Positions 38,015 to 52,191 of a stretch of DNA of 64,000 nucleotides are shown one piece after another; position 1 is the first letter of the stretch; every line of letters begins with the position of its first letter. Made by a program: the position numbers and the translations under genes. Source of the stretch: Croceivirga thetidis (GTDB lineage: Bacteria; Bacteroidota; Bacteroidia; Flavobacteriales; Flavobacteriaceae); the NCBI RefSeq assembly GCF_012272815.1, contig NZ_JAAWWL010000001.1:638929-702928 (forward strand), written 5' to 3'. A model generated the notes under the pieces. The model was not told the DNA's origin and searched no databases. It saw only the letters and a program-made list of their open reading frames with translations.

Positions 38015-38452
38015 TCAAGTTAAGCTCTGATTTCTAATATCAGACTTACCCCCCGTTTTCTCAAGCAATTTGATGTCTTTAATTTCAATACCCTTATCGA
38101 TGGGTTTCAGCATATCATACATGTTTAGCGCTACTACACTCGCACCGTGCATGGCTTCAACTTCTACGCCAGTTTTATAAAAGGTTTTAACGGTCACCCT
38201 AATAATTATATTCAAATCGTCAATTTCGTATGCTATTCCGGCATATTCAATTGGCAGCGGATGACAATCAGGTAGTAATTCCGGGGTTTTCTTTAAACCT
38301 AAAAAACCAGCGGCTTTGCTCATTGCAAATACATCACCTTTCGGAACTGTCTTTTTCTTAATTGCATCAATTGTGAGCATAGAACCAACCCTAACCACTG
38401 CTTGTGCGATTGCTGTTCTATGTGTGTTTTGCTTTTGGGTAATGTCTACCAT
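38015..38452 (-). CDS. moaC: Cyclic pyranopterin monophosphate synthase
   Basis: 145 aa from the ATG at 38452 (MVDITQK), 2 nt after the moaE stop; a start seven codons earlier would overlap moaE. Family motifs: VDITQK, KTPELLPDCHPLPI (active site) and VEVEAMHGASVVALNMYDMLK. It converts the GTP-derived 3',8-cyclo intermediate to cPMP in molybdenum-cofactor synthesis. Coupled to moaE. The two Mo enzymes downstream (sulfite dehydrogenase-like and IorAB-like) need this cofactor. Confidence 0.95.
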   Translation of the reverse strand: MVDITQKQNTHRTAIAQAVVRVGSMLTIDAIKKKTVPKGDVFAMSKAAGFLGLKKTPELLPDCHPLPIEYAGIAYEIDDLNIIIRVTVKTFYKTGVEVEAMHGASVVALNMYDMLKPIDKGIEIKDIKLLEKTGGKSDIRNQSLT

Positions 38453-38454
38453 TT

Positions 38455-38895
38455 TTATGTATTCACTTTCCATTTATAGGAATCATCTTCAAAGAGTTCC
38501 TTTCCAAAAACGGGAACCTCCTTTTTGATTTCCTCCACGATGTGATGTAATCCTTCAAAAACTTCTCTTCGGTGTGCAGAAGAAACTAAAACGAACAAGC
38601 AAATCTCTCCAACAGCAACTTTTCCCGTACTATGAAAAATAGAAATGGAACTTAATTCAAATTTCTCAAGTGCGGATTGTCTAATTGCATCAAATTTTTG
38701 CAATGCCATATTTTCATACGACGTATACTCAATGGCTGAAACCGTTTTTCCATCAATTGTATCGGCTCTTACCTGTCCAAGGAAAATATCGTGCGCCCCA
38801 ATACCAGTATTTGACTGCAAATTGGTTAAGCAATCAGCGATAAATTCTGGGGAAATCGCACCTTCTATAAACACTTTTTGAAATTTCGTTTGCAT
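38455..38895 (-). CDS. moaE: Molybdopterin synthase catalytic subunit
   Basis: 146 aa. Motifs: GAHDIFLGQVRAD (about 33-45), HSTGKVAVGE, SSAHRREVFE and KKEVPVFGKELFED...YKWK, which carries the catalytic Lys. With MoaD it transfers sulfur to cPMP to form molybdopterin. moaD, moaA and moeA are not in this window. moaC follows directly. Confidence 0.95.
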   Translation of the reverse strand: MQTKFQKVFIEGAISPEFIADCLTNLQSNTGIGAHDIFLGQVRADTIDGKTVSAIEYTSYENMALQKFDAIRQSALEKFELSSISIFHSTGKVAVGEICLFVLVSSAHRREVFEGLHHIVEEIKKEVPVFGKELFEDDSYKWKVNT

Positions 38896-39540: not shown

Positions 39541-39954
39541 TTAGTGGGGTAATTTAGGCTTAAGAAGGCCATAAACAAAGGTTCCAGCAACTGCGCTGCC
39601 AAGTACAATAAGGATTGGCCAGAATCCAGCACCCGCCAAAACGTACATTGGTCCCGGACATGCACCTGCAAGTGCCCATCCTAAACCAAAGAGCACACCA
39701 CCAATCGAGTATCGAATTATTGATCTTTCTTTATCGGCTATATTTAACTCATCTCCGTAAAACGACTTTGTACCTGGTCGCTTTGCCCATTGTGTAAAAA
39801 CGATTCCCAAAAATAAAGCTGAACCAATAATACCATACATGTGAAATGAATCGAATTGGAACATCTCGTAAATACGGAACCAAGATGCTGCCTCTGATTT
39901 GAAAAGAACAATTCCAAAGAACGTTCCGATAAACAAATAAATAAAACTTCGCAT
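39541..39954 (-). CDS. YeeE/YedE-type sulfur transporter, second half-protein (PmpB-like)
   Basis: 137 aa with four hydrophobic segments. Signature GGVLFGLGWALAGACPGPMY (conserved Cys99) of the YeeE/YedE family, whose Cys residues relay thiosulfate or sulfane sulfur across the membrane. Starts 2 nt after the preceding gene, so the two half-size proteins are cotranslated and probably form one transporter. Part of the putative Crp-controlled sulfur island (operator at 40559). Confidence 0.88.
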   Translation of the reverse strand: MRSFIYLFIGTFFGIVLFKSEAASWFRIYEMFQFDSFHMYGIIGSALFLGIVFTQWAKRPGTKSFYGDELNIADKERSIIRYSIGGVLFGLGWALAGACPGPMYVLAGAGFWPILIVLGSAVAGTFVYGLLKPKLPH

Positions 39955-39956
39955 AC

Positions 39957-40514
39957 TTAAAAGATTAAAGGGAAAAGTAAGTGTACCATCAAAAGACCTC
40001 CAGCAAAAAAACCAATTACAGCTATCAAAGATGGTAGCTGCAGGTTACTCAATCCAGAAATTGCATGTCCGGAGGTACAACCACCCGCATATCTCGCACC
40101 GAAACCGACCAAGAAACCACCAACAATCAATATTACCATGGTTTTTACATCAGAAAATACAGTTAAGCCGAAGAGCTTTTCGGGCATGTAGTTGATTCCA
40201 CCATCATTGAATCCCAAAACCTTTAGTTTTGCGATTGTTTGCTCAGAAATAGCCACGGCATCATTTGGAGACAAAAAATTCTGTGCAATAAAACCACCCA
40301 ACAAAACACCAAGGGCCACAATTAAATTCCAACGTTGTGCGCGCCAGTCAAATCGAAAAAATTCAGCGATTCTTCCTGCACCAGCAGCAGAGCAGAGGGT
40401 TCTCAGATTTGAAGACATTCCAAATCGCCGCCCAGTCAATATCAATAAGGCCATGGTAAGGGCAATCAACGGCCCTGAAACATACCAAGGCCACGGCTGT
40501 AAAATCACATCCAT
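39957..40514 (-). CDS. YeeE/YedE-type sulfur transporter, first half-protein (PmpA-like)
   Basis: 185 aa with about five hydrophobic segments. Conserved Cys41 (NLRTLCSAAG) and Cys146 in GARYAGGCTSGHAISG, the diagnostic YeeE motif. Predicted to import thiosulfate or a related sulfur species with the next gene. A perfect GTAAC-N4-GTTAC palindrome lies 44 nt upstream of the ATG. Confidence 0.88.
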   Translation of the reverse strand: MDVILQPWPWYVSGPLIALTMALLILTGRRFGMSSNLRTLCSAAGAGRIAEFFRFDWRAQRWNLIVALGVLLGGFIAQNFLSPNDAVAISEQTIAKLKVLGFNDGGINYMPEKLFGLTVFSDVKTMVILIVGGFLVGFGARYAGGCTSGHAISGLSNLQLPSLIAVIGFFAGGLLMVHLLFPLIF

Positions 40515-40558
40515 TGTTTAAATTTTTACGAAGATTGGACAATTATTCGCAACAAGAA

Positions 40559-40572
40559 GTAACCTAGGTTAC
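40559..40572 (-). promoter_or_regulatory. Crp/Fnr-type operator A (upstream of yeeE pair)
   Basis: GTAACCTAGGTTAC is a perfect 14-bp palindrome. Counting 33 bp downstream gives AATCTTCG, only a weak -7 box, so promoter assignment is less certain than at sites B-D. Confidence 0.6.
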
Positions 40573-40654
40573 AAAACATAATTAGTAAACGATATTGGGC
40601 AAAAAATATCGTGAAAGCCTAGTCAACTTGATAAATAACACCAGTGAATTTTGG

Positions 40655-40759
40655 CTATCTGCTTCTTTGCGGTAAAGCAAATTCAGCTATAACCAACATC
40701 GCGATTATTAAAATCGCTAGACCGACAATTGCCACTAATTGACCAATTGAATCCAACAT
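40655..40759 (-). CDS. Candidate 34-aa single-pass membrane protein
   Basis: Minus-strand ATG at 40759: MLDSIGQLVAIVGLAILI and on, one hydrophobic helix over about residues 7-24, then a basic end (LPQRSR). It lies in the 322-bp gap between the DUF2892 and yeeE genes, on the same strand as both, so it could be carried on the DUF2892 transcript. The rest of the gap shows only operator A. Confidence 0.4.
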   Translation of the reverse strand: MLDSIGQLVAIVGLAILIIAMLVIAEFALPQRSR

Positions 40760-40836
40760 TAAAAATGTGAACAGCTGTATAAGTTTAAAATCTAATGCAA
40801 GCTATTGGAATCAGATTCCAAACGGTATGATTTTTA

Positions 40837-41043
40837 TCAGTTCTTGACTTTGCAGGTATTCAGGCCAACAAGGGTATACAAAGGGCAAAAGCTAACAAAA
40901 CTGGTCAAAAGGAAAATTACTCCAACTGAAATTAACACATAAGCCAGAATGCCTTGAATTATACCCAAGAAGTATAAAACAGCAATAATTATCGCCGCTA
41001 GTATTCGTATAATGCGGTCGGTATTTCCCATATTCTTTTTCAT
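40837..41043 (-). CDS. DUF2892 (YgaP-type) membrane protein
   Basis: 68 aa from the ATG at 41043 (MKKNMGNTDRIIRILAAII); the frame is open 30 codons upstream, but the family begins here. Two membrane helices and a C-terminal SFCPLYTLVGLNTC, the standard DUF2892 ending with two Cys. The same domain anchors the YgaP rhodanese of E. coli and recurs in sulfur gene clusters. Controlled from a TAnnTTTG box 33 bp from operator B; leader about 105 nt. Confidence 0.85.
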   Translation of the reverse strand: MKKNMGNTDRIIRILAAIIIAVLYFLGIIQGILAYVLISVGVIFLLTSFVSFCPLYTLVGLNTCKVKN

Positions 41044-41149
41044 CGCTATAATGTTTTGATATACTCTATAATTAAGACAATAGGAGTTATGAAAGAAACG
41101 CAAAGCAAACAAACCAATACTAACTTCTGCCACTTCTTAAGGTCCATAA

Positions 41150-41157
41150 CAAATGTA
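41150..41157 (-). promoter_or_regulatory. -7 box for the DUF2892 transcript, activator-spaced
   Basis: CAAATGTA reads TACATTTG on the minus strand (exact TAnnTTTG). Its centre is 33 bp from the centre of operator B, and there is no TTG at the -33 position, as expected of an activator-dependent promoter. Confidence 0.6.
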
Positions 41158-41178
41158 ATTGTCTATTAATGAGAAAGA

Positions 41179-41194
41179 TGTAACTTTTGTTACA
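41179..41194. promoter_or_regulatory. Crp/Fnr-type operator B (divergent DUF2892 / sulfite dehydrogenase)
   Basis: TGTAACTTTTGTTACA has perfect 6-bp arms (TGTAAC / GTTACA). It sits between divergent genes: a perfect -7 box 33 bp away on the minus side, and TATTTTG at about the mirrored distance on the plus side (41216-41222). One site could drive both promoters. Confidence 0.75.
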
Positions 41195-41242
41195 CAATTG
41201 CAAATTCTATTTTAGTATTTTGAGCCTACTATCATCAATTAT

Positions 41243-42463
41243 ATGAATAGACGACAATTTACGAGTAGACTTACATTGGCATCCATGGTGGGTGTTTTAG
41301 GGATGCCTATTGTGTTTGGCGAAAAATTACCAAAAGGTTACCTACCCCTTGGACTTCAAGACCAAGATCCTTTTAAACTCTTCAACAAAAACAAGGAAAT
41401 GGTCGTATTGAACGACAATCCTTGGAACATGGAAGCCCAGGCACATCTATTGGACGATGAGATTACCCCAAACAAGTTCATGTTCATTCGTAATAATGGA
41501 AAGATTCCTACGAATATTAATTCCAAGGAATGGACACTGACCTTTGATGGTGAATCGGTCAAACAAATTAAAAAATACAGCCTACAAGAACTAAAATCGA
41601 AATTTCAACAGTATACGTATCAACTTACCTTAGAATGTGGGGGAAATGGGCGAAGTGAGTTCAACCCGCCGGCAAAAGGCAATCAATGGACCATCGGTGC
41701 CGTTAGCTCAGCAGAATGGACCGGAGTGCGCCTTAGCGATGTGCTTGCCGACGTAGGCATTAAGCCAGATGCCGTTTATATTGGCTACCATGCGGCGGAT
41801 ACGCATTTGAGTGGAGATGTTACCAAAGAACCTATTTCACGTGGCGTTCCGATAAATAAAGCGCTTCAAAATGAAACGCTATTGGCATTTCAAATGAATG
41901 GTCAAGACATCCCTTTAGCCCATGGTTATCCACTGCGGCTTGTTTGTGGTGGATGGCCGGCCTCGGCTTCTGGTAAATGGATAAATCGAATCAGTGTTAG
42001 AAACAAAGTTCACGATGGTGCAAAAATGACCGGCTCGTCTTACCGTGTGCCTTGTGAAGCAGTCGCTCCTGGTGAAAAGGTTTCTGATGAAGACATGTGT
42101 ATCATTGAGTCCATGCCTGTTAAGTCTTTGATTACCTATCCTAAAACAGGAGGAATACTAAACAATGAAAGAACATTAAAGATAAGGGGGCATGCATGGG
42201 CCGGAGAACTGGAAGTTTCAAAAATGGAATATTCCATTGATTTCGGAAGCACATGGAAAACATGTAATCTTCAAAAACCTGTAAATCGATTGGCATGGCA
42301 ACATTTTAATGCATCAATTGACATTAGACAACCGGGTTATTACGAAATTTGGGCAAAAGCAACAGACAATCAAGGTAGGAGTCAACCTATGGTTTTGCCT
42401 GGTTGGAATCCTAAAGGCTATTTAAATAATGCTTGTCATAGAATAGCGATAAAAGTGGTTTAA
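41243..42463 (+). CDS. SorA/SoxC-type molybdenum sulfite dehydrogenase
   Basis: 406 aa. N-terminal twin-arginine-like signal (NRRQFTSRLTLASM) for export of the folded cofactor enzyme. Oxidoreductase Mo-binding domain about 70-275 with the Mo ligand Cys132 in LECGGNGR, HAADTHLSGDV and LAHGYPLRLVCGGWPASASGKW; C-terminal Mo-co dimerisation domain about 295-405. Predicted to oxidise sulfite to sulfate in the periplasm, passing electrons to the c-type cytochrome encoded 1 nt downstream. Operator B lies 49 nt before the ATG. Confidence 0.88.
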   Translation: MNRRQFTSRLTLASMVGVLGMPIVFGEKLPKGYLPLGLQDQDPFKLFNKNKEMVVLNDNPWNMEAQAHLLDDEITPNKFMFIRNNGKIPTNINSKEWTLTFDGESVKQIKKYSLQELKSKFQQYTYQLTLECGGNGRSEFNPPAKGNQWTIGAVSSAEWTGVRLSDVLADVGIKPDAVYIGYHAADTHLSGDVTKEPISRGVPINKALQNETLLAFQMNGQDIPLAHGYPLRLVCGGWPASASGKWINRISVRNKVHDGAKMTGSSYRVPCEAVAPGEKVSDEDMCIIESMPVKSLITYPKTGGILNNERTLKIRGHAWAGELEVSKMEYSIDFGSTWKTCNLQKPVNRLAWQHFNASIDIRQPGYYEIWAKATDNQGRSQPMVLPGWNPKGYLNNACHRIAIKVV

Positions 42464-42464
42464 A

Positions 42465-42920
42465 GTGGAGTACAATTTTCGCAAACAAATTCAGTCTTTG
42501 GGAAAGCTATTGCTGGTATTCGGATTGCTCTTTGTAGTGCTGATTTTCGGACTTTTTTATTTGAAAAATAATCCTCAAGTTTTTGAGGATGAAGTTGAAG
42601 ATTCTGCTTTGGAAATTATTTCTGCAGCTGCGTTGGACGAAGAGACAATCGCAAATTCTGGTTTTATCAATGATGAGGGAGTCACCCAAGTTATTCAGAA
42701 TTGTACGCAATGTCACTCATCAAAATTGGTAACCCAAAATAGAATGTCTGCTGAAGGTTGGAAAAGTACAATTTTATGGATGCAGGAAACTCAAAACCTA
42801 TGGGATTTGGGTACAAATGAAGAATTGATTGTAGCTTACTTAGCAAAAAATTATGCTCCGGAGCGAAAGGGAAGAAGAGAAAACCTGACCAATCTGGAGT
42901 GGTATGAAATAGTAGAATGA
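42465..42920 (+). CDS. Membrane-anchored monohaem cytochrome c (SorB-like role)
   Basis: 151 aa from a GTG start placed 1 nt after the sulfite dehydrogenase stop; no ATG exists before the anchor. One membrane helix (about 13-33), then a periplasmic domain with a single CTQCH haem site (Cys80, Cys83, His84) and Met93 as a possible sixth ligand. Position and size suggest it is the electron acceptor of the Mo enzyme. Overlaps the next gene by an ATGA junction. Confidence 0.82.
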   Translation: MEYNFRKQIQSLGKLLLVFGLLFVVLIFGLFYLKNNPQVFEDEVEDSALEIISAAALDEETIANSGFINDEGVTQVIQNCTQCHSSKLVTQNRMSAEGWKSTILWMQETQNLWDLGTNEELIVAYLAKNYAPERKGRRENLTNLEWYEIVE

Positions 42921-43792
42921 TGGAGAACTATTTTGATGCATTTATTGCAGCTTTTAATGGAACTGTGCGCTATACATGGAAATCAATTCTTTTTGAGGTA
43001 CCGTGGTATAAAAACTACTTCTGGGGTTTGATTGCCATCTCATTTGCAGTTTGGCTTTTAGAGATTCTCTTCCCTTGGCGCAAGAACCAATCTATATTCA
43101 GAAAGGATTTCTGGTTGGATGCCTTCTATATGTTTTTCAACTTTTTCATTTTCACAATTATCATCAGTGGGGTCTATAAAATACTGGAGCTGATTTTTGG
43201 TCAATTTGGTATTGGCGCTGAAAGTTTGGCCTTAATTAACACATCAAACTGGCCAATTTGGTTGGAATTGGTGGTTTTCTTCATTTTATTGGATTTTGTG
43301 CAATGGCTTACCCATGTTTGTTTGCATAAATTCGGGTTCTTATGGCAATTTCATCAGGTTCATCATAGCGTAAAAGAAATGGGATTTGCGGCCCACCTAC
43401 GTTATCACTGGATGGAGAATATCCTATACAAACCCCTAAAAACGTTGGGTGTGATGCTTTTAGGTGGTTTTGAACCAGAACAAGCTTATATTGTTCACTT
43501 TGCGGCCATAACGATTGGTCACTTAAATCACGCTAATATTAAACTTACCTATGGACCCTTAAAGTACATCTTTAACAATCCGGTAATGCACTTATACCAT
43601 CATTCCTATGAGTTGCCCAAAGGGAGTTTTGGTGTCAATTTCGGGATAAGTCTAAGCCTTTGGGATTATATTTTTAAAACCAACTATGTACCTGAAGATA
43701 GTGGTACGATTGTTTTGGGTTATCCTGGAGATGAAAGAATGCCAAAAAACTTTTTACAGCAATTGGTCTACGGTTTTATCAAGCGAAAATAA
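42917..43792 (+). CDS. Sterol desaturase/fatty-acid hydroxylase superfamily protein
   Basis: 291 aa, about four membrane helices plus the di-iron His cluster: HVCLH (about 134-138), HQVHH (about 146-150) and HLYHH (about 228-232). The family hydroxylates or desaturates lipid chains. It starts inside the stop of the cytochrome gene (ATGA), so it belongs to the sulfite dehydrogenase operon; this link is unusual. A role in modifying sulfonolipids, which many Flavobacteriia make, is a speculative explanation. Confidence 0.85.
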   Translation: MMENYFDAFIAAFNGTVRYTWKSILFEVPWYKNYFWGLIAISFAVWLLEILFPWRKNQSIFRKDFWLDAFYMFFNFFIFTIIISGVYKILELIFGQFGIGAESLALINTSNWPIWLELVVFFILLDFVQWLTHVCLHKFGFLWQFHQVHHSVKEMGFAAHLRYHWMENILYKPLKTLGVMLLGGFEPEQAYIVHFAAITIGHLNHANIKLTYGPLKYIFNNPVMHLYHHSYELPKGSFGVNFGISLSLWDYIFKTNYVPEDSGTIVLGYPGDERMPKNFLQQLVYGFIKRK

Positions 43793-43804
43793 GTTTTGAT
43801 AGGT

Positions 43805-43927
43805 CTATTCGTATTGCCTTTGAATCTCATATACAAAAACAAGAATGCCAATGAGAAAACTTAACAATCCAATGACTAAAAGTGCATTGTTCCAAAGTAA
43901 AACGAAAATATTAAGTGGTATTTCCAT
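43805..43927 (-). CDS. Candidate 40-aa single-pass membrane protein
   Basis: Minus-strand ATG at 43927: MEIPLNIFVLLWNNALLVIG and on, hydrophobic over about 5-32, ending YEIQRQYE. Strong helix with a polar end. It lies between the end of the hydroxylase gene and the TPMT gene, on the TPMT strand and downstream of it. It could be a small accessory membrane subunit or a chance frame. Confidence 0.42.
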   Translation of the reverse strand: MEIPLNIFVLLWNNALLVIGLLSFLIGILVFVYEIQRQYE

Positions 43928-44027
43928 AAACCATTAGTCTACTTTCAATAAAATGGTTAGGAATTGGAAGATACAAAAATATTCAATAATGTAGTATTTT
44001 TCCTACATTATTTAAATTCCTTTTAAA

Positions 44028-44609
44028 TTAACGAACTAAGTTCATAAAGAGTTCCTTTCCTTTTCGAGGAGGTATTGAATTGTAGCATTGCTCAAAAACC
44101 CCAACTTTAAAATAGGGTTCGAAATAGCCTAAGTATTCCTCTTTCGTACCACCAAATGGCGGTCCTCCATTCAATGGAAAATCAAATAGTAAGCCAACCA
44201 ATCTCCCGCCAGCTACCAGAAGTTTATGCATTTTCTTAGCATAGGTTAGACGAAATGATGGATGCAATGCACAAAAAAACGTCTGTTCCAAAATCAAATC
44301 GTACGTTCCTTCTAAATCAAAAAAATCTTTGACTATAAACTGGTTTTCTGGAAAATCTGGAAAACGCTCTAAAAAATTATCCTTTGCAGTCTGCGCCAAA
44401 TCAACAACAAAAGTATTTTTAAAGCCCGTTTTGTAGAGGTATTCAGCCTCATAGGAATTACCTCCACCAGGAATCAAAATTCGAATCGACTTATCTGGAA
44501 GTTGATCAGCGTAATTCTTTAATGGTGTTGAAATATATCCGATATCCCATCCCAATTGATTTTCTTGATATCGGTTATCCCAATAAGCTGCATTAAGTAT
44601 ATCGGACAT
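44028..44609 (-). CDS. TPMT-family thiol S-methyltransferase
   Basis: 193 aa from the ATG at 44609, whose A is the last base of the preceding stop (TAATG). Motifs: YWDNRYQENQLGWDIG (about 9-24), the SAM loop LIPGGGNSYEAEYLY, EQTFFCALHP and GLLFDFPLNGGPPFGGT, all typical of TPMT/thiol methyltransferases. Given its neighbours (rhodanese, persulfide dioxygenase), sulfide or a small thiol is a likely acceptor, giving methanethiol or a methyl sulfide; this is inference. Last main gene of the operon from 46408. Confidence 0.85.
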   Translation of the reverse strand: MSDILNAAYWDNRYQENQLGWDIGYISTPLKNYADQLPDKSIRILIPGGGNSYEAEYLYKTGFKNTFVVDLAQTAKDNFLERFPDFPENQFIVKDFFDLEGTYDLILEQTFFCALHPSFRLTYAKKMHKLLVAGGRLVGLLFDFPLNGGPPFGGTKEEYLGYFEPYFKVGVFEQCYNSIPPRKGKELFMNLVR

Positions 44610-44989
44610 TATTCCTGCACCCAATCATTGTAGCCACCGGAATAATCAAAAATTTGTGTAAAGCCTTCTGCTTTTAGCAATTCTGCCGCCCGATTACTAC
44701 GACCACCTGCTTTACAATAGAGATATACAGGTTTTGATTTATCAAGTGTTTTTATCTGCTCTAAGAATTCATCACCCTGGACCACATTGAAATTTACCGC
44801 ATCACCAATTCGACCCACTTCATATTCCTCTGCGGTTCTAACATCAACCAATTGCACTTGTTTACCAATAACATTTTCTTTTAAATACGTTTTGTCAATT
44901 TTGGTGATTTTGGCTTCTTGTTGGGATTGACAGCCAAAAAATAGACTTAAACTCAAAAGGAAGGTTAACAAATGATACTTTGATTTCAT
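44609..44989 (-). CDS. Rhodanese-domain lipoprotein
   Basis: 126 aa. Lipobox SLFFGC (Cys20) makes it a lipid-anchored envelope protein. One rhodanese domain (about 40-126) with active-site Cys92 in YLYCKAGGRS. Transfers sulfane sulfur outside the cytoplasm. Starts 6 nt after the persulfide dioxygenase gene and overlaps the methyltransferase start by one base. Confidence 0.92.
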   Translation of the reverse strand: MKSKYHLLTFLLSLSLFFGCQSQQEAKITKIDKTYLKENVIGKQVQLVDVRTAEEYEVGRIGDAVNFNVVQGDEFLEQIKTLDKSKPVYLYCKAGGRSNRAAELLKAEGFTQIFDYSGGYNDWVQE

Positions 44990-44995
44990 GGCCGA

Positions 44996-46408
44996 TTATT
45001 TAATTGTGCTAGGACAAATATAATCAGTGGTAGGTATACCAGCCTCCTTTATTGCCTTCATGCCTCCTTGAACATCAATTAGATTATGAATGCCACGACT
45101 CTTGAGAATTGAAGCTGCAATCATACTTCGATAACCTCCGGCACAATGCACATAGAAATCACCTTCGGATGGAAATTCTGCTAAATGGTCATTTAGAAAG
45201 TCGAGAGGCGCCAAGTTGGCATCTTCAATATGTTCTGCTTCAAATTCACTAGGCTTTCTTACATCAAAAACCTGGGTTTTCGTGCTTTCAATTGCCTTTT
45301 TTAATTCAGCCGCAGGTACAGAACTAACGGTGTCATATTCCTTAGAAGCTCCTTTCCAAGCTTTAAAACTACCTTCTAAATATCCTAAAGTATTGTCAAA
45401 ACCTACTCGCGACAATCGTGTCACCACCTCTTCTTCACGGCCTTCTGGCGCCACCAACAATATTGCCTGTTTTACATCGCCTATCAAAGCTCCCACCCAC
45501 GGTGCAAAACCTCCATTTATTCCTATAAAAATCGAACGCGGAATATGTCCTTTAGCAAATTCTTGTTGGTTTCTAACATCTAAAACAACGGCACCCGTTT
45601 CATTTGCTGCCGCCTCGAATGCTTCTGGAGAAAGTGATCTTGTACCACGCGCCAGAACTTCATCAATATCATCATAGCCTTCTTTGTTCATTTTAACATT
45701 AAGCGGAAAATATTGTGGGGGTGGTAACAAGCCATCCGTTACTTCCTTGACAAATTCCTCTTTGGTCATATCCGCTCTCAGCGCATAGTTCATTTTCTTT
45801 TGATTTCCCAAGGTGTCGACGGTCTCTTTCATCATGTTTTTTCCACAAGCAGAACCAGCCCCATGGGCAGGATATACAATGACATCATCTGCCAAAGGCA
45901 TGATTTTGTTTCGCAGACTATCATACAATGTACCTGCTAATTGTTCTTGAGTCATATCAGCAGCTTTTTGCGCTAAATCAGGTCTTCCCACATCACCCAA
46001 AAACAAGGTGTCCCCACTAAAAATGGCATGGTCTTTACCGTTCTCATCACGAAGTAAATAGGTAGTACTTTCCATGGTATGGCCAGGCGTATGTAGTACC
46101 ACGATCTTTATGTTACCCAAGGGAAATTCTTGACCATCTTCTGCAACGATGCAATCAAAAGAAGGATTGGCATTAGGTCCAAAAATTATGGGCGCACCAG
46201 ATTCTTTAGAAAGTGTTACATGCCCACTGACAAAATCGGCATGAAAGTGGGTTTCAAAAATATATTTGATTTTAGCCCCAGCTTTCTCGGCCCGCTCCAA
46301 ATATGGATTGACCTCGCGCAATGGGTCAATTATAGCAACTTCACCTTCACTCTCAATATAATAAGCTCCCTGAGCCAAACAACCGGTATAAATCTGTTCT
46401 ATCTTCAT
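44996..46408 (-). CDS. CstB-type persulfide dioxygenase-rhodanese fusion
   Basis: 470 aa from the ATG at 46408 (MKIEQIYTGCLAQGAYY); the seven codons upstream are not family-like. Metallo-beta-lactamase domain (1-245) with THFHADFVSGH (His54, His56, Asp58), His110, Asp133 and His182, the ETHE1-type Fe(II) persulfide dioxygenase set. Then a first rhodanese (about 255-355) without the active Cys (LLVAPEGRE) and a second (about 365-455) with Cys422 (YVHCAGGYRS). This matches CstB, which turns persulfides into thiosulfate through sulfite. Promoter and operator C lie just upstream. First gene of a three-gene operon. Confidence 0.92.
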   Translation of the reverse strand: MKIEQIYTGCLAQGAYYIESEGEVAIIDPLREVNPYLERAEKAGAKIKYIFETHFHADFVSGHVTLSKESGAPIIFGPNANPSFDCIVAEDGQEFPLGNIKIVVLHTPGHTMESTTYLLRDENGKDHAIFSGDTLFLGDVGRPDLAQKAADMTQEQLAGTLYDSLRNKIMPLADDVIVYPAHGAGSACGKNMMKETVDTLGNQKKMNYALRADMTKEEFVKEVTDGLLPPPQYFPLNVKMNKEGYDDIDEVLARGTRSLSPEAFEAAANETGAVVLDVRNQQEFAKGHIPRSIFIGINGGFAPWVGALIGDVKQAILLVAPEGREEEVVTRLSRVGFDNTLGYLEGSFKAWKGASKEYDTVSSVPAAELKKAIESTKTQVFDVRKPSEFEAEHIEDANLAPLDFLNDHLAEFPSEGDFYVHCAGGYRSMIAASILKSRGIHNLIDVQGGMKAIKEAGIPTTDYICPSTIK

Positions 46409-46426
46409 ATTCGTCAAATTCAGGTT

Positions 46427-46434
46427 CAAAGGTA
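46427..46434 (-). promoter_or_regulatory. -7 box of the cstB-like operon, activator-spaced
   Basis: CAAAGGTA reads TACCTTTG on the minus strand (exact TAnnTTTG). Its centre is 33 bp from operator C and 22 nt from the ATG. No TTG at the standard -33 spacing. Confidence 0.65.
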
Positions 46435-46456
46435 TCTATTGTTTGTCAGAAAAAAA

Positions 46457-46470
46457 GTGACAAAAGTTAC
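46457..46470 (-). promoter_or_regulatory. Crp/Fnr-type operator C (cstB-like operon)
   Basis: GTGACAAAAGTTAC: arms GTGAC / GTTAC, one mismatch from the palindrome seen at sites A, B and D, followed by AT. It abuts the 3' end of the SulP gene. Confidence 0.65.
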
Positions 46471-46471
46471 A

Positions 46472-48190
46472 TTAACGGTGTTGTAAGGATACCTTTTTTT
46501 GGATTGCAGTTTTCTCAACTTTTTTCAAACTATCGGCATAAGCTTCCGCCGTTCTTACATAAATGTTTTCTTGTCCGATTACGGTTAGTAAACCACTTTT
46601 TATAAGAATATCTCGAATTGGACCAATTGCTCCGGCCAACTTAAACGTAACTCCCCTATCCTTTAGTTGTAAAATAACAGAATGCAACTGTTTTGCGGCC
46701 GTATCATCCAAATAATTTACAGGCTCGGCATTTAGTATTACGTAACGCAAACGGGGTCCTTTCTTCCGTACTTCCTTCATTAATGCCCGTTTGAAAAACT
46801 GAACATTGGCAAAGAACAATTGGGCATCAAATCGTATCATTAAAATTTCATCATGTACTTCAACATCTTCGCCAAAGCGAGCTACATTTTTAAAGTATTC
46901 CATGCCTTTTATTTTACCTAAAACGGCAAAATGTGGTTTGGAGATTCGGTAAACTAAGAACACTAATGAGAAGAGCACCCCAAAAATTATCCCCTGGGAA
47001 ATCCCAATCAACAAGGTTGTTAAAAAGGTGGCTAGCAACAACACAAATTCATCTTTCTGTTGTTTCATTAATTGTCTTGGATATTTCAAATCAATCAAGC
47101 CATAAACCGCGACCAAAATAATCGCTCCCAAAACCGATTTTGGCAAGAAGTAAAAGAATGGCGTCAAGAACAATAGTGTCAAACCAACGACAATTGCACT
47201 GATAATGGAAGCCAAGCCGGTTTTAGCACCTTCGTCAACATTAACCGCAGTTCTTGACAATCCGGCATTGGCAGGAAAAGACTGAAATAAAGATCCTATA
47301 ATATTTGAAAAACCCAGTGCCCTAAGCTCTTGATTCGGTCGCGTAAACTGCTCATTGGACTTTTCCTCTACCGCTTTGGCAATCGTCATCGCTTCTGCAA
47401 AAGCTATAAAAGCTAGGGCCAGGGCAGTAGGAAATGCCACAACAAGTTGTGATGTAGAAAATTTAGGGAGCACAAAATCTGGTAAACCCTGGGGAACTTT
47501 TCCTAAAATATGGACGTCGGTCTCATTGACCATAAAAAAATATATTCCGATGATAGACAAAATCACCACAACCATTGCAGCAGGAAGCTTTTGATGTACT
47601 TTTTTTAATCCTACTATGACCAGTATCGCAGCTATACCAATCGATATGTCGTAAATATTGGTTTTGCCGATATTTTCAATAACTGCTATGAATGTATTCA
47701 AGGTGCCCTGTGATTGAAATTCAAGTCCAAAAAGATACTTCAGTTGACTTATGGCAATAACCAATGCAGCCGCAGAGGTAAATCCACTTACCACCGGTCT
47801 TGAAAGAAAATTGGCCAAAAAGCCCATTCTAAAGAAACCCATGACCATTTGCATTACACCTACAAGTAGGGCTAAGAACAGTGCCATGGATATATAGTCT
47901 TCAATATTGGCCAATTTCATGGCTGCCAAACTTGAAGCTACAATCAAAGAATCCAAAGCAACAGGACCCACGGCCAACTTTCGACTTGAACCTGTGAAAG
48001 CATAAAGTAGATTAGGTACCAGCGCTGCATACAATCCGTAAACAGGTGGAAGACCTGCAATAAGGGCATAGGCCATGCCTTGCGGTATCAACATAACACC
48101 GACTGTTATTCCTGCCGAAATATCTCCTGACAAATAGGATTTCTTATACTTTGGCAACCAATCTATTATGGGGAAATAACGTTTCAACAC
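46472..48190 (-). CDS. SulP-family anion transporter with STAS domain
   Basis: 572 aa. SulP membrane domain (about 10-410, some 12 hydrophobic segments) with MLIPQGMAYALIAGLPPVYGLY and GSSRKLAVGPVALDS near the N-terminus, and a C-terminal STAS domain (about 440-550). The family moves sulfate, bicarbonate and other anions. In this context sulfate or sulfite movement is the natural guess; direction is unknown. CAAAGGTA at 48196-48203 is a -7 box immediately upstream without a nearby palindrome, so it may also have its own promoter. 53 nt after the Crp gene. Confidence 0.92.
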   Translation of the reverse strand: MLKRYFPIIDWLPKYKKSYLSGDISAGITVGVMLIPQGMAYALIAGLPPVYGLYAALVPNLLYAFTGSSRKLAVGPVALDSLIVASSLAAMKLANIEDYISMALFLALLVGVMQMVMGFFRMGFLANFLSRPVVSGFTSAAALVIAISQLKYLFGLEFQSQGTLNTFIAVIENIGKTNIYDISIGIAAILVIVGLKKVHQKLPAAMVVVILSIIGIYFFMVNETDVHILGKVPQGLPDFVLPKFSTSQLVVAFPTALALAFIAFAEAMTIAKAVEEKSNEQFTRPNQELRALGFSNIIGSLFQSFPANAGLSRTAVNVDEGAKTGLASIISAIVVGLTLLFLTPFFYFLPKSVLGAIILVAVYGLIDLKYPRQLMKQQKDEFVLLLATFLTTLLIGISQGIIFGVLFSLVFLVYRISKPHFAVLGKIKGMEYFKNVARFGEDVEVHDEILMIRFDAQLFFANVQFFKRALMKEVRKKGPRLRYVILNAEPVNYLDDTAAKQLHSVILQLKDRGVTFKLAGAIGPIRDILIKSGLLTVIGQENIYVRTAEAYADSLKKVEKTAIQKKVSLQHR

Positions 48191-48243
48191 GGGTACAAAG
48201 GTAAACAGCTTTTTTGCTATGTCTTGAATTGGCCGTTTCTAGG

Positions 48244-48876
48244 TTAAAGGTTTTTTATTTCGATTGAATTTCGGTGCAACACTATCTTTCCCATCAACTC
48301 CAGTTTTTTCAATAAACGTGAAACCACCACCCGTGAACTGTGTAAATCATAAGCAATTTCTTGATGGGTGTTTTTGATGGTATTTGATTGGTTTAGTCGC
48401 GACTTTTCTTTTAAATATTCGACCAAACGTTGATCCATGTTCATAAAGGCAATGCTATCTACGGTATGAAGCAACTCATTCAAGCGCGTATGGTAACTTT
48501 CAAAAACAAAATTTCGCCAACTACGGTACTTTGAGGTCCATTCTTCCATTTTACGAACCGGAACCATAATCAGTTTGGCATCTGTTTCGGCTATAGCCCG
48601 AATTTCACTTTGTGAATCTTGTAAACAACATGCCATGGTCATACTGCAAGTATCGCCTTGTTCCAAATAGTAAAGCAATAATTCATCACCTTCAGAATCT
48701 TCTCGAAGAATCTTGATTACACCATCAAGTAGTAATGGCATAAATCGAATGAAGTCACCTATCTCAATCAACTTAAAGCCCATCGGGACCTCTTTAAAGG
48801 TTCCTACTTGGGCAATATCATTTAAGAGTTCGTTCTCGAAAATTTGGCCAAAACTTGTTTTTAACTCTTGAATCAC
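48244..48876 (-). CDS. Crp/Fnr-family regulator, likely controller of the sulfur island
   Basis: 210 aa. Cyclic-nucleotide-fold sensor (about 10-115), dimer helix (about 118-145) and HTH (about 166-208; HQEIAYDLHSSRVVVSRLLK). The phosphate-binding cassette lacks the Glu/Arg pair of cAMP-binding Crp, so cAMP is unlikely. Instead Cys77, Cys83 and Cys84 (DTCSMTMACC) sit where the ligand loop should be, suggesting thiol/persulfide or metal sensing; there is no Fnr-type four-Cys set. Its own promoter carries operator D. Confidence 0.9.
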   Translation of the reverse strand: MIQELKTSFGQIFENELLNDIAQVGTFKEVPMGFKLIEIGDFIRFMPLLLDGVIKILREDSEGDELLLYYLEQGDTCSMTMACCLQDSQSEIRAIAETDAKLIMVPVRKMEEWTSKYRSWRNFVFESYHTRLNELLHTVDSIAFMNMDQRLVEYLKEKSRLNQSNTIKNTHQEIAYDLHSSRVVVSRLLKKLELMGKIVLHRNSIEIKNL

Positions 48877-48880
48877 CCAG

Positions 48881-48888
48881 CAAAGTTA
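48881..48888 (-). promoter_or_regulatory. -7 box of the Crp/Fnr gene, activator-spaced
   Basis: CAAAGTTA reads TAACTTTG on the minus strand (exact TAnnTTTG). Centre 33 bp from operator D, 5 nt from the ATG, so the mRNA is close to leaderless. No TTG at -33. Confidence 0.62.
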
Positions 48889-48910
48889 CAGCATAACAAG
48901 ATTGACGTCG

Positions 48911-48924
48911 GTAACTTTAGTTAC
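48911..48924 (-). promoter_or_regulatory. Crp/Fnr-type operator D (autoregulatory)
   Basis: GTAACTTTAGTTAC, perfect 5-bp arms, continuing with AT. Located upstream of the Crp/Fnr gene and 8 nt past the iorB-like stop. Confidence 0.72.
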
Positions 48925-48931
48925 ATGACCA

Positions 48932-51079
48932 TTAAGCTAATTTTAAAGGCAATTTGGTCAGTCTTTGCCCAGTCAATCGAAATACCGCATTGGCAACTGC
49001 TGCACCAATCGGTCCCAAGGGTGGTTCGCCCACAGGACCTGGGGTATCTTTACCCTGCAGGAGTACGACATCTATTTCTTTTGGTGAGTGTTTCATTAAG
49101 GCCATTTCATAAGGTCCGTAAATAACGGGCCGTAGCTCTCCATTCGCTACAAACATTTGTTCATGCATTGCTGCACTGATTCCCATACACACACAACCTT
49201 CACATTGCGCCTTGACTTGATCTGGATTTACAGCAAGACCTGGGTCCAAAGCAACGGTGACTTTGTGCACCTTAATTTCTTTGTCTTCAATAGATACTTC
49301 CACAACTTGTGCACAGGGTGTCCCTGCATCAATTGAGGCAGCTAATCCCATGGCCCTTCCATTTGATACGTTTTCAGTATATCCCGATCTTTCGACAACA
49401 GCTTCAATTGTTGTTTTTAATCGCTTACCAATAGCATCGTCTGCAATTTGGGCCAGTCTAAAATCAGCAGCATTTTTACCTGATTTAACGGCCATATGAT
49501 CCATAAAGCTTTCAATTGCGAAGGTATTGGCCAGAAGTCCCAAACTCCGCCACCAACTGGTGGCAAAAGGCAATTGCACATGCCAGTAAACGGAACGGTG
49601 GTTCGGCACGCTTGTATATTGAAGGAAACCTCCGCGAATCGCCCCAACATCTGCTCCTAAAACAGTTGGCGCGAAGCTAGGAACCAAAACTGAATTGTTC
49701 CCGACATCTCCACTCACAAAATGATGCTCCAAGCCTTCAAGCAATCCTTCGTCATTTAACATTCCCTTCATTACATGATGGGTCGGAGGCCGAAACATAT
49801 CATGTTGAAATTCTTCTTTTCTACTAAAAAAGTATTTTACCGGTTTACCCACGGCCTTTGACATGACCGCAGCCTGAACGGCATGGGGGGTGTGTAACCG
49901 TCGCCCAAAACCACCACCTAGATATGTTGGGATAACATTGACATTTTCTTCCTCGAAACCTAATCTCTCGGCCACCTCGCTCCTAGTTATTCCAACAACT
50001 TGGGTCGATATTTTTATGATGGCTTTTTCACCTTCAACTGACGCCAATACCCCGTTGGGTTCTATTTGTGCATGTGCTCCAATTGGACTTCTAAACTCTA
50101 GTATTTCAGCATCATCTTCAAGTGCAGTACCTTCTTTTTGAATAATCGTGTGCTTGCCATTACCAACGGTCATCAATTTCTCTAAATCTTCCTGCTGCAA
50201 ATCCATGGGGGCCTCCCATTCAACCACAATGGCATTCTTGGCATTTTCAGCTTGCTGATAAGATTCGGCAACTACCCCAACAAAATCATCTTCTTCGATA
50301 ACTTTAACGACACCAGGCATAGCTTCTGCCTTGGTAGTATCTGCACCAATGAACTTGGCCCCAATTTTATCTGGACGGACAACGGCTCCATAGAGCATTC
50401 CTTCCATATCAGCATCCATACCAAAAATAGGCGAGCCATAGACCTTATCGTCAAGGTCAATTCTCGGTATGGGCTTACCCACGAATTTATAGTCCTTGAC
50501 ATTCTTCAAAGTAGGTTCGTCAATTTCAGGCCATTCAGTGACCCCTTCTGCCACCTCAGCATAGGTCAAAGAGGTTCCATTGGCAGAAGCACTTCCTTCA
50601 TTAATTTCTACATCTCCAATGTCAACTCCCAATTTATTTGCAGCAACTGTTCGAATCATTTCTCGCATGGTAGCCGCTAACACACGAAGTGGTTGCCAAA
50701 GCCCCGAAACTGAAGTACTGCCACCTGTACTTACACCATCTAAATTACCTGTTGAAGTGGCGGCATGAATCACCTTTAGCATCCGCATTGGAATTTCCAA
50801 TTCATCGGCAGCCATTTGAGCAAAACTTGTAAACGAACCTTGGCCCATTTCAACCTTTGGAGAGTGTAATACTATAGTGTTGTCTGTTAATACCTCGAAC
50901 CATACCATTGGATTTTTAGTATCTCCACTGTAAGGTAATTCCATGGTGTTGGCCATTTCAAGAATACTTCTTCGTATCGGATTTCTGAATATATAGGCCC
51001 CAACAGCCAAAACCCCAGCGGTACCTAGGCCTCCTCTGACCAAAAACTTACGTCTCGATATTTTCTTTTTTTCTGCCAT
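48932..51079 (-). CDS. Xanthine-dehydrogenase-family molybdopterin subunit (IorB-like)
   Basis: 715 aa. Twin-arginine signal SRRKFLVRGG (about 8-17), so exported folded, unlike cytoplasmic xanthine dehydrogenase. Mo-hydroxylase motifs: EMGQGSFTSFAQMAADEL, GGGFGRR and the catalytic Glu685 in GPVGEPPLGP. The IorB group uses c-type cytochromes as acceptors and oxidises aldehydes or N-heterocycles; the substrate here is unknown. Third gene of a cytochrome-IorA-IorB operon (3-nt gap). Confidence 0.9.
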   Translation of the reverse strand: MAEKKKISRRKFLVRGGLGTAGVLAVGAYIFRNPIRRSILEMANTMELPYSGDTKNPMVWFEVLTDNTIVLHSPKVEMGQGSFTSFAQMAADELEIPMRMLKVIHAATSTGNLDGVSTGGSTSVSGLWQPLRVLAATMREMIRTVAANKLGVDIGDVEINEGSASANGTSLTYAEVAEGVTEWPEIDEPTLKNVKDYKFVGKPIPRIDLDDKVYGSPIFGMDADMEGMLYGAVVRPDKIGAKFIGADTTKAEAMPGVVKVIEEDDFVGVVAESYQQAENAKNAIVVEWEAPMDLQQEDLEKLMTVGNGKHTIIQKEGTALEDDAEILEFRSPIGAHAQIEPNGVLASVEGEKAIIKISTQVVGITRSEVAERLGFEEENVNVIPTYLGGGFGRRLHTPHAVQAAVMSKAVGKPVKYFFSRKEEFQHDMFRPPTHHVMKGMLNDEGLLEGLEHHFVSGDVGNNSVLVPSFAPTVLGADVGAIRGGFLQYTSVPNHRSVYWHVQLPFATSWWRSLGLLANTFAIESFMDHMAVKSGKNAADFRLAQIADDAIGKRLKTTIEAVVERSGYTENVSNGRAMGLAASIDAGTPCAQVVEVSIEDKEIKVHKVTVALDPGLAVNPDQVKAQCEGCVCMGISAAMHEQMFVANGELRPVIYGPYEMALMKHSPKEIDVVLLQGKDTPGPVGEPPLGPIGAAVANAVFRLTGQRLTKLPLKLA

Positions 51080-51082
51080 GAC

Positions 51083-51574
51083 TTAAGAATTTTGGGTTTC
51101 TGTTTCATCTTTGGTTGGAGTCAACTCGGCGGCACGGTGAATTGCTTTTCGCATTCGGTAGTACGTTCCACAACGACAAACATTGATAATATTTTTATCA
51201 ATATCATCATCCGTTGGTTTTGGATTCTTATCCAATAAAGCTGCAGTAGCCATCATGAACCCAGGTTGACAATACCCACATTGTGGCACCACTTCTTCAA
51301 TCCATGCTTGTTGTACTGGATGGGGATTCTCTTTATCCCCTAAACCTTCAATTGTTGTGACCGCTTTGCCTTCAGCAAATTTTACTGCGTATGAACAAGA
51401 CCGCACGGCTTCACCATCTACATGTAGGGTACAAGCTCCACATGCTGCCTTTCCACAACCAAACTTGGTGCCCTTTAAGTCCAATATATCTCGCACCACC
51501 CAAAGCAGCGGAGTGTTTTCATCGGCAACATCAACAGTTTGTTGGGTACCATTTATTCGAAATGAAATCTTCAT
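51083..51574 (-). CDS. 2Fe-2S subunit of the molybdenum hydroxylase (IorA-like)
   Basis: 163 aa. N-terminal plant-ferredoxin-type cluster ([16 protein letters not shown] with a further Cys at about 61) and C-terminal helical cluster domain ([10 protein letters not shown] ... [13 protein letters not shown]). Delivers electrons from the Mo subunit to the cytochrome. No signal of its own; presumably carried out with IorB by the Tat system. 8 nt after the cytochrome gene. Confidence 0.93.
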
Positions 51575-51582
51575 AGTTACAA

Positions 51583-52191
51583 TTATTCAGTTGGTATTAT
51601 GTGTCCTTCTTCAAACCATTTTTCAACGGCTTCCTTGTACTCATCCAAAGGTACTGGTGGTAGTTCTCGTGGGTTTCCTTCAGCATCCACTCCGGGTGTC
51701 CAAGCCCAAAGCACCAACTCATGTTCCGTTAAATGGTGTAAGGTTTCTTCTGGTGTGCGACCTCCATTTCGTTCAGGATCCATCATTGATTCAGCAATCT
51801 CATATCGGTTCAATCCTTCCCAACGCATTGAGTGTGGAGCCAAAGACCATTCAGGTGCTCCAGGCACTCCCGAATAAGGGTTATTTTCTTCATGATGGCA
51901 GGTATTGCAATTTGTTGCCTCGTAACCCAAATTATTTTGTCCCCTAGAGATTCCAAAATAATGGGGATGACTATCATCGCCCTGCTTTGGAACATTATCA
52001 TTGGGGTGGCAATTAACACATCGTTCATGTGTCAAAACGTCCATCATTTTGTGGAAGGCTTCCTCTGAGGTAGAATTAGTAGAGGAAGTCGTCACCGCCA
52101 CGTATTCTGGTAAGGTCGTTCTATTTGTCGCGGCCAGTAGCAATACTGCCGTTAAAAAAATCGCATAAATTAGAATGAGTTTAGTTTTCAT
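51583..52191 (-). CDS. Exported dihaem cytochrome c of the IorAB operon
   Basis: 202 aa with a signal/anchor helix (about 4-21). Two haem sites: CVNCH (about 58-62) and CNTCH (about 95-99). No similarity to standard class I cytochromes beyond these motifs; similar dihaem proteins accompany IorAB-like enzymes as electron acceptors. First gene of the operon; a TetR-type palindrome lies directly upstream of its ATG. Confidence 0.85.

Follow-up and report, generated by a model that had tools for sequence, protein, structure and literature searches.

The locus and its palindromes

The subject of this work is a putative regulatory system found in a window of 64,000 nucleotides from the 3.7-Mb genome of Croceivirga thetidis (assembly GCF_012272815.1, contig NZ_JAAWWL010000001.1, positions 638,929-702,928). 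It consists of a regulator gene of the CRP/FNR type, a set of sulfur genes and the palindromes placed in front of them. The regulator gene (48244-48876, minus strand; all coordinates are those of the window) encodes a protein of 210 amino acids with the recognition helix SSRVVVSR (R182, V183, R187). Two Pfam families, cNMP_binding (PF00027) and HTH_Crp_2 (PF13545), were found in this protein and in 55/55 aligned homologs, which places it in the CRP/FNR superfamily; no NCBIfam equivalog scored above its cut-off. Directly downstream of the regulator gene there is a gene for a SulP-family anion permease with a STAS domain (46472-48190, minus strand; Pfam, NCBIfam sulP). The cstB operon, also on the minus strand, comprises genes for a CstB-like protein with metallo-beta-lactamase (MBL) and rhodanese domains (44996-46429; Pfam Lactamase_B, and Rhodanese in two stretches), a rhodanese-domain protein (44609-44989; Pfam) and, as the last gene, a TPMT-like methyltransferase (44028-44624; Pfam). 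The MBL domain of the CstB-like protein is, in our own reading, of the persulfide dioxygenase type. The same strand carries a DUF2892/YgaP-like transmembrane protein (40837-41133; PF11127) and the two halves of a YeeE-type sulfur transporter (39957-40514, PF04143; DUF6691, 39541-39954, PF20398). On the plus strand are the genes for a SorA-like molybdenum sulfite dehydrogenase (41243-42463; Oxidored_molyb and Mo-co_dimer) and a SorB-like c-type cytochrome subunit (42465-42920), for which the best NCBIfam matches, SorA and SorB, fell below cut-off, followed by an FA_hydroxylase family gene (42917-43792; PF04116). According to Pfam, the gene set of cst-type sulfide detoxification (MBL/rhodanese, transporter and rhodanese) is present together in the window, the enzyme activities being predicted ones.

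Motif searches located palindromes of the form GTAAC-N4-GTTAC at the promoters of several of these genes. Exact copies occur in front of the regulator's own gene (GTAACTTTAGTTAC, 48911-48924), between the divergent DUF2892 and sorAB genes (GTAACTTTTGTTAC, 41180-41193) and at the yeeE promoter (GTAACCTAGGTTAC, 40559-40572), and a copy with one mismatch at the cstB-like promoter (GTGACAAAAGTTAC, 46457-46470). An earlier note on this DNA had listed the same palindromes, correctly except for the second one, which was given at 41179 and begins at 41180. Promoters of Bacteroidota are built from a -7 element, TAnnTTTG, and a -33 element, TTG, and the sites of class II activators are centred near -41.5. 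In agreement with what that note had claimed, 33.0 bp were measured between the palindrome and a perfect TAnnTTTG box, from centre to centre, at the crp (TAACTTTG, 48881-48888), cstB-like (TACCTTTG, 46427-46434) and DUF2892 (TACATTTG, 41150-41157) promoters, all three on the minus strand. The lack of a TTG at normal spacing also held for the three: the nearest upstream TTG was 37, 26 and 8 bp ahead of the box, with none at 17-23 bp. Toward sorAB there is a -7-like box at 33 bp (TATTTTGA, 41216-41223, plus strand), and at the yeeE promoter the box position is occupied by the weak AATCTTCG (40529-40536, minus strand). The crp box precedes by only a few bases the GTG start at 48876, so that autoregulation may yield a leaderless transcript, or else the start codon may be an internal one. 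The cstB box overlaps the TTG that opens the listed open reading frame, and translation thus probably begins at the ATG at 46408.

Considering the window alone, the clustering of palindromes is only modestly surprising: five matches with up to one mismatch were found against 1.17 expected, and 2/100 shuffles reached five. The whole genome of C. thetidis contains seven exact palindromes, three of them inside the 8.4 kb of the locus, compared to 17 copies of the reversed control, which means no genome-wide enrichment of the palindrome; when up to one mismatch was allowed, the counts were 111 for the palindrome and 326 for the control. None of the four exact palindromes outside the locus, and none of the 47 places examined among the 103 with one mismatch, displayed five or six of the 6 box letters at 33 bp. 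The palindromes and their spacing are real, and the decisive evidence for them is the comparison with relatives.

Conservation of sites, spacing and target genes

Two samples were compared. The first consisted of 80 regulator loci, by their titles mostly from Flavobacteriaceae, each flank of the regulator gene extending up to 10 kb (1.507 Mb in all), and the second of the stretches upstream of cstB from 80 genomes of the family. In the first sample, exact GTAACN4GTTAC was present in 201 copies distributed over 75/80 loci, the reversed pattern in 10 copies, and the spacer variants N3, N5 and N6 in 1, 0 and 0 copies. When TAnnTTTG boxes were collected within about 80 bp of a site with up to one mismatch, 167/202 were at exactly 33.0 bp; the reversed pattern had 26 nearby boxes, none of them listed at 33. 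The 74 regulator-bearing stretches of the second sample yielded 60/76 boxes at 33.0 bp and 9 at 32.0. The reversed pattern showed a peak of its own, of 13 boxes at 41.0 bp, formed by a CATTGAAAGCAATG-like inverted repeat plus a TAnnTTTG octamer in 13/80 loci; this is one conserved stretch, in Maribacter in 9/13 cases (e.g., L012:13172, L018:13172 and L019:13178), with no clear gene start adjoining.

A profile was built from 131 sites selected for having an exact palindrome and a perfect box. GTAAC was preceded by T in 89% of them, and GTTAC was followed, on the promoter side, by T (62%) and G (64%), while columns 18-36, between the site and the box, carried at most 0.34 bit. A TTG occurred 17-23 bp upstream of the box in only 3/131. 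The 33.0-bp spacing gives a fixed site overlapping the -35/-33 element, which is the arrangement of a class II promoter, with start sites that are predicted.

Concerning the genes behind the sites, 260 site/strand cases with a box of at least 5/6 letters were obtained from the 80 loci and labelled by best BLAST hits, a labelled gene being preferred over an unlabelled one. The downstream genes were TauE (48 cases), CstB (46), DUF2892 (23), FA_hydroxylase (19), DUF983 (18), SQR (14), Rhodanese (11), TolC (11), CRP (8), YeeE (8), SulP (8), SorA (5), Prx (5), TsdA (5), DsrE (2), HMA (2) and HemN (1), and 26 remained unlabelled. Pfam analysis of ten representatives of downstream genes that initially had no label identified TauE, DUF983, pyridine-nucleotide-disulphide oxidoreductase, outer membrane efflux protein, AhpC/TSA peroxiredoxin, SoxA/TsdA-type cytochrome, DsrE and HMA, with no match in 2/10. 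The oxidoreductases are interpreted by us as SQR; no SQR resembling that of the relatives was found in the C. thetidis genome, in a search that had no positive control. By our labels, 170/260 cases precede sulfur-linked genes (TauE, CstB, DUF2892, SQR, Rhodanese, YeeE, SulP, SorA, TsdA and DsrE), and the other 90/260 precede genes that are unlabelled or not evidently sulfur genes. The proposal of the earlier note that the regulator serves a sulfur gene set thus stands for the main part of the cases, but not evidently for those 90, and yeeE has no good box in the window. The FA_hydroxylase family, found behind operators in the relatives and overlapping the end of sorB in the window, is an unexplained companion of the sulfur genes. 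DUF983 is often located directly before the regulator gene; in Maribacter loci (e.g., L014:9604-9999), the DUF983 proteins encoded there, behind an operator, have CPRC motifs.

With respect to the divergent site of the window, 10/13 sorA homologs had an exact palindrome upstream, and two of the three without it abut the end of the locus. Nine of those ten relatives carried TATTTTGA, TATTTTTA or TATCTTTA at 33 bp. The site at 41180-41193 thus very likely serves both directions, being probably common to the DUF2892 and sorAB promoters.

The presence of the sites was also related to the presence of the regulator. In the family, the regulator was detected (E ≤ 1e-20) in 139/149 genomes and cstB in 145/149. 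The cstB sample included six genomes without regulator, four with a weak match only (E 3e-28 to 2e-43) and 70 with a clear regulator. A site with a box of at least 5/6 letters at 33 bp was present beside cstB in 0/6, 1/4 and 49/70 of them, respectively. Among the 70, the proportion was 37/53 when the regulator gene was inside the stretch and 12/17 when it was not there. In whole genomes, TGTAACN4GTTACA had 164 copies where the regulator was present (139 genomes; reversed control 58) and 1 copy where it was absent (10 genomes; control 1); as the two groups are unequal in number and in genome size, these counts are only supporting. Altogether, the interpretation of the earlier note was supported by the two sets of 80 loci as regards a Crp/Fnr protein, the fixed 33-bp geometry of class II-like promoters and a mainly sulfur-related gene set.

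Cysteines, recognition residue and distant relatives of the regulator

The only cysteines of the regulator, C77, C83 and C84, were invariant in 81/81 sequences, that of the window included. In 60 distant members, C77 was kept in 60/60, C83 in 34/60 and C84 in 20/60, and in eight plasmid homologs C77 was kept in 8/8 and C83 in 7/8. C77 is one of ten invariant columns in an alignment of 55 members. The phmmer alignment with CRP places TCSMTMACCLQDSQSEI over the cAMP-binding cassette, a segment that in CRP holds cAMP and in CRP proper contains the residues G-E-L ... R-S, which are not found in the regulator. FNR proper has an N-terminal cluster of cysteines for [4Fe-4S], and the regulator, with its three cysteines at 77, 83 and 84, has none there. 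The AF2 model of the protein has a mean pLDDT of 90 and forms a helix at residues 80-85. According to the alignment and the model, the three cysteines would be located in the segment used by CRP to bind cAMP.

Residue 183 of the recognition helix occupies, in the phmmer alignment, the place of CRP Glu181, and the equivalents of R180 and R185 are kept. It was Val in 81/81 sequences of the first sample, window included. A distant sample of 60 further regulator loci, mostly from other families and classes but including ten of a single genus within the family, contained 25 loci with Val and 35 with Glu. When half-sites of GTRAC-N4-GTYAC were counted in them, the GTAAC:GTGAC ratio was 25:1 for Val and 12:20 for Glu (Fisher p 1.9e-6, kinship ignored), or 20:0 and 11:19 if a box of at least 4/6 letters was required. 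In a tree calculated without the helix columns, the residue changed between Val and Glu at least five times, and two independent pairs on well-supported branches (three on all branches) carried both traits, none in the opposite direction. These comparisons suggest that the third base of the operator tends to follow residue 183, GTAAC going with Val and GTGAC with Glu. The CRP mutants E181V, E181L and E181K, studied by Ebright and colleagues, reportedly prefer A:T over G:C at that base pair. An example of the Glu type is Pontibacter, with two promoters in which GTGACN4GTCAC keeps the 33-bp distance, to TACCTTTG in the case of tauE and to GACCTTTG in that of a rhodanese gene. Over all the distant loci, 9/21 near-consensus boxes were at 33.0 bp.

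A protein search in plasmids returned 32 records, of which 17 were examined, 14 of them proteobacterial (Thiothrix, Thioclava, Paracoccus, Ruegeria, Azospirillum, Pseudosulfitobacter and Chelativorans). A DUF2892/YgaP-like gene was annotated within three genes downstream of the regulator in 12/14 of the proteobacterial loci, and at least two of YeeE, DUF6691, MBL hydrolase, sulfur transferase and SulP in 11/14; the Thiothrix and two Azospirillum loci have DUF2892 with the other sulfur neighbours absent. The plasmid loci of Spirosoma and Pontibacter contain TauE (DUF81), MBL and YeeE genes, and a Clostridia plasmid (Pusillibacter) has a regulator homolog without such sulfur neighbours. The motif GTGAC-N3-RTYAC was first noticed in five proteobacterial loci, in four of them between the regulator and the next gene and in Azospirillum lipoferum before DUF2892. 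In the loci fetched later, the space separating the regulator from the gene annotated next to it contained GTGACN3GTCAC with up to one mismatch in 9/9. In the 139 kb of the 14 loci, the exact N3 form had 11 copies, and the N4 and reversed forms had 0; with one mismatch there were 10, 8 and 4, respectively. The exact copies point to a spacer of 3 in these proteobacteria versus 4 in Bacteroidota.

Many marine bacteria, and also sulfur-oxidising proteobacteria, thus appear to share a similar arrangement of regulator, sulfur genes and operator. We give about even odds to the wider proposal that all of these belong to one undescribed, phylum-crossing family of CRP/FNR activators, extending from Flavobacteriaceae to sulfur-oxidising Alpha- and Gammaproteobacteria, in which an invariant cysteine in the old cAMP pocket would sense sulfur and GTAAC and GTGAC operators would alternate with residue 181 (CRP numbering).

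Proposed mechanism and alternative readings

Comparison among genomes carries the sites, their spacing, the gene set, their presence and absence together with the regulator, the invariance of Cys77 and, over few independent changes, the tracking between residue and operator. From these we infer direct binding by the regulator, activation and not repression, the start sites and a sulfur signal. The resulting explanation, to which as a whole we assign a probability of roughly 0.8, is that of a CRP/FNR activator of a sulfur regulon whose core would be the handling of persulfide and sulfite. The regulator, presumably as a dimer, would bind TGTAAC-N4-GTTACA about 40 bp upstream of the transcription start, in a class II position where it would replace the missing -33 element and recruit RNA polymerase to TAnnTTTG promoters. 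Its targets in the window would be its own gene, the cstB-type persulfide dioxygenase operon, the DUF2892/YgaP-like gene, sorAB and the YeeE-type transporter, to which tauE, sqr-like, tsdA-like, rhodanese and peroxiredoxin genes would be added in relatives. The conservation of C77, its position in the pocket and the nature of the gene set make a thiol-based sulfur signal our best guess. Most likely, Cys77 would read reactive sulfur species (persulfide or polysulfide, less likely sulfite), helped in close relatives by Cys83 and Cys84.

Several observations weigh against this explanation. At the locus itself, the yeeE and sorAB boxes match only 4/6 letters. Among the clear-regulator genomes, 21/70 lacked a qualifying site in the sequence analysed upstream of cstB; these misses include some second copies of cstB (e.g., in genomes G068 and G026) and also lineages near 50% identity whose sites look degenerate, such as GTAAC-N4-ATTAC. 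In G065, a genome that lacks the regulator, one exact TGTAACN4GTTACA is present; it has no box and is located on the far side of cstB, at a distance of about 1.3 kb. As for the targets, FA_hydroxylase, DUF983, TolC, HMA and HemN are not evidently sulfur genes, and 26/260 cases are unlabelled. The AF2 model is least confident around the cysteine segment (mean pLDDT 64 for residues 81-90), and a bridge between two cysteines was ruled out as a general mechanism, C83 and C84 being often lost in distant members. Concerning the operator base, 12/32 half-sites of Glu-type loci are GTAAC, the 80 first loci, all of Val type, contain 59 GTGAC half-sites versus 407 GTAAC, and the tracking between residue and operator cannot reach significance with only 2-3 independent pairs. 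Finally, the nine proteobacterial loci fetched later come from genera or orders already represented among the five that revealed their motif.

The alternative that survives best, although we consider it unlikely, is a redox or oxygen switch, or a general thiol-oxidation switch forming a disulfide or sulfenate at C77/C83/C84, for which the sulfur genes would be part of a wider stress set. Three cysteines fit general thiol oxidation, and the targets in relatives include peroxiredoxin (5), TolC (11), HMA (2) and HemN (1); but the three commonest labels are TauE, CstB and DUF2892, and the neighbours of the regulator in proteobacteria are again sulfur genes.

It seems quite improbable that the operators mark repression, or binding without activation. 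Position alone is no proof of activation, but the single 33.0-bp spacing (167/202 and 60/76 boxes) without a -33 TTG is the layout of a class II activator, and the position of repressor sites is usually variable. CstR, SqrR and BigR, which are known to regulate similar operons, are repressors (PMC7315123, PMC9774590).

A low probability, similar to that of repression, is given to a nitrosative-stress regulator of the HcpR2 type, responding to NO or nitrite, that happens to control sulfur genes. The likeness is clear in that HcpR2 belongs to the CRP/FNR family, its published operator consensus in Bacteroides and others is GTAACnnnnGTTAC, and it has lost the Glu at CRP position 181 (Rodionov et al. 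2005, PMC1274295). However, most HcpR2 members have Pro at that position and this branch has Val; HcpR2 was predicted to control hcp, and no hybrid cluster protein (PF03063) was found in the C. thetidis genome by a search that was positive in 5/14 control genomes; and 170/260 site cases precede sulfur-linked genes. Identity with HcpR2 was rejected as the leading reading on the failure to find hcp and on the differing residue 181, as set against the published description. That the operators are bound by another Crp/Fnr paralog, the FNR-like second of the two HTH_Crp_2 proteins of the genome (E ≤ 0.001), which has cysteines near its N terminus, can be dismissed as most improbable, since its helix GTATESAIR reads TESAIR and not R-V-V-V-S-R, on which account it was ruled out, and no qualifying sites were found beside cstB in the six regulator-lacking genomes examined.

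Compared to other known systems, the sulfur-responsive activator proposed here shares with FisR the activation of sulfur genes, since FisR activates an sqr-pdo-tauE operon in response to sulfide, but FisR is a sigma-54-dependent persulfide-sensing activator with another protein architecture and promoter class (PMC7315123). CstR (CsoR family) and SqrR/BigR (ArsR family) also control sulfide or persulfide genes via cysteines, but they are repressors of other folds (PMC9774590). By Pfam and Foldseek, the regulator is outside the CsoR, ArsR and sigma-54 activator families. Escherichia coli CRP/CAP has the same fold (Foldseek TM-scores about 0.7-0.86), a class II-like geometry and the R180/R185 equivalents, whereas in the regulator the cysteines of the cassette replace the cAMP ligands, and Val at 181 goes with an A:T replacing G:C in the operator. 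The best match in both sequence and structure was PDB 3dv8, an uncharacterised Crp/Fnr protein of Eubacterium rectale, with Cys at the places of C77 and C83 but not of C84. RedB from Rhodobacter capsulatus, representing a CRP/FNR subgroup that was described recently, differs in having a non-palindromic, AT-rich motif of 12 bp and photosynthesis, energy and translation genes as targets (PMC9603854); identity with it was set aside on the motif as described.

The sulfur-responsive regulators named in the papers are CstR, SqrR/BigR, PigS and FisR (PMC7315123, PMC9774590), and also sHdrR/SoxR. The examined portions of PMC12937710, a paper on the cavities of the family, mention neither 3dv8 nor persulfide, and those of PMC6603298 and PMC12531629 neither the CRP E181 work nor this regulator subfamily. 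The PMC literature searched yielded no report of a CRP/FNR protein regulating persulfide or sulfite genes in Bacteroidota, which is weak evidence of absence because subscription papers are mostly outside it; nor was any account found there of how Bacteroidota sense reduced sulfur. The statement of the earlier note that no description of the regulon was known can accordingly be kept for the sulfur regulon, but not for the motif, already published for HcpR2. The fold and the promoter logic are classic; within the literature searched, the regulon, the placement of the cysteine and the spread over phyla appear undescribed. The transcript of a DUF2892 gene reportedly rose about 10-fold under sulfide oxidation in Azospira suillum (PMC5358917). 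In marine sediment, heterotrophic bacteria including Bacteroidota reportedly contribute to the oxidation of sulfide (PMC12345210).

The regulator, its 14-bp operator with fixed promoter geometry, the gene list and the candidate sensing residue are all directly testable. If the explanation is true, the CRP/FNR fold would join the CsoR, ArsR and sigma-54 classes of sulfur-responsive regulators, and the variation at residue 181 would be a natural counterpart to the specificity changes that are said to have been obtained in the laboratory with CRP.

Some minor features were also observed. In Salegentibacter, two operators are 32-33 bp apart (L043:19528/19560, L052:19156/19189 and L051:12374/12407) and face divergent genes, one for a small protein of about 118 aa and the other for a larger protein that looks secreted; Pfam gave no match for the one representative analysed of each. 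In the window, sorA has the molybdenum cofactor genes MoaC and MoaE (38015-38895) in its vicinity; a molybdenum hydroxylase pair (MoCoBD and 2Fe-2S, 48932-51574) abuts the crp operator and is adjoined by a CxxCH-bearing protein without Pfam match (51583-52191). MoaC/MoaE, SorA and the hydroxylase pair may be described as a local molybdoenzyme island.

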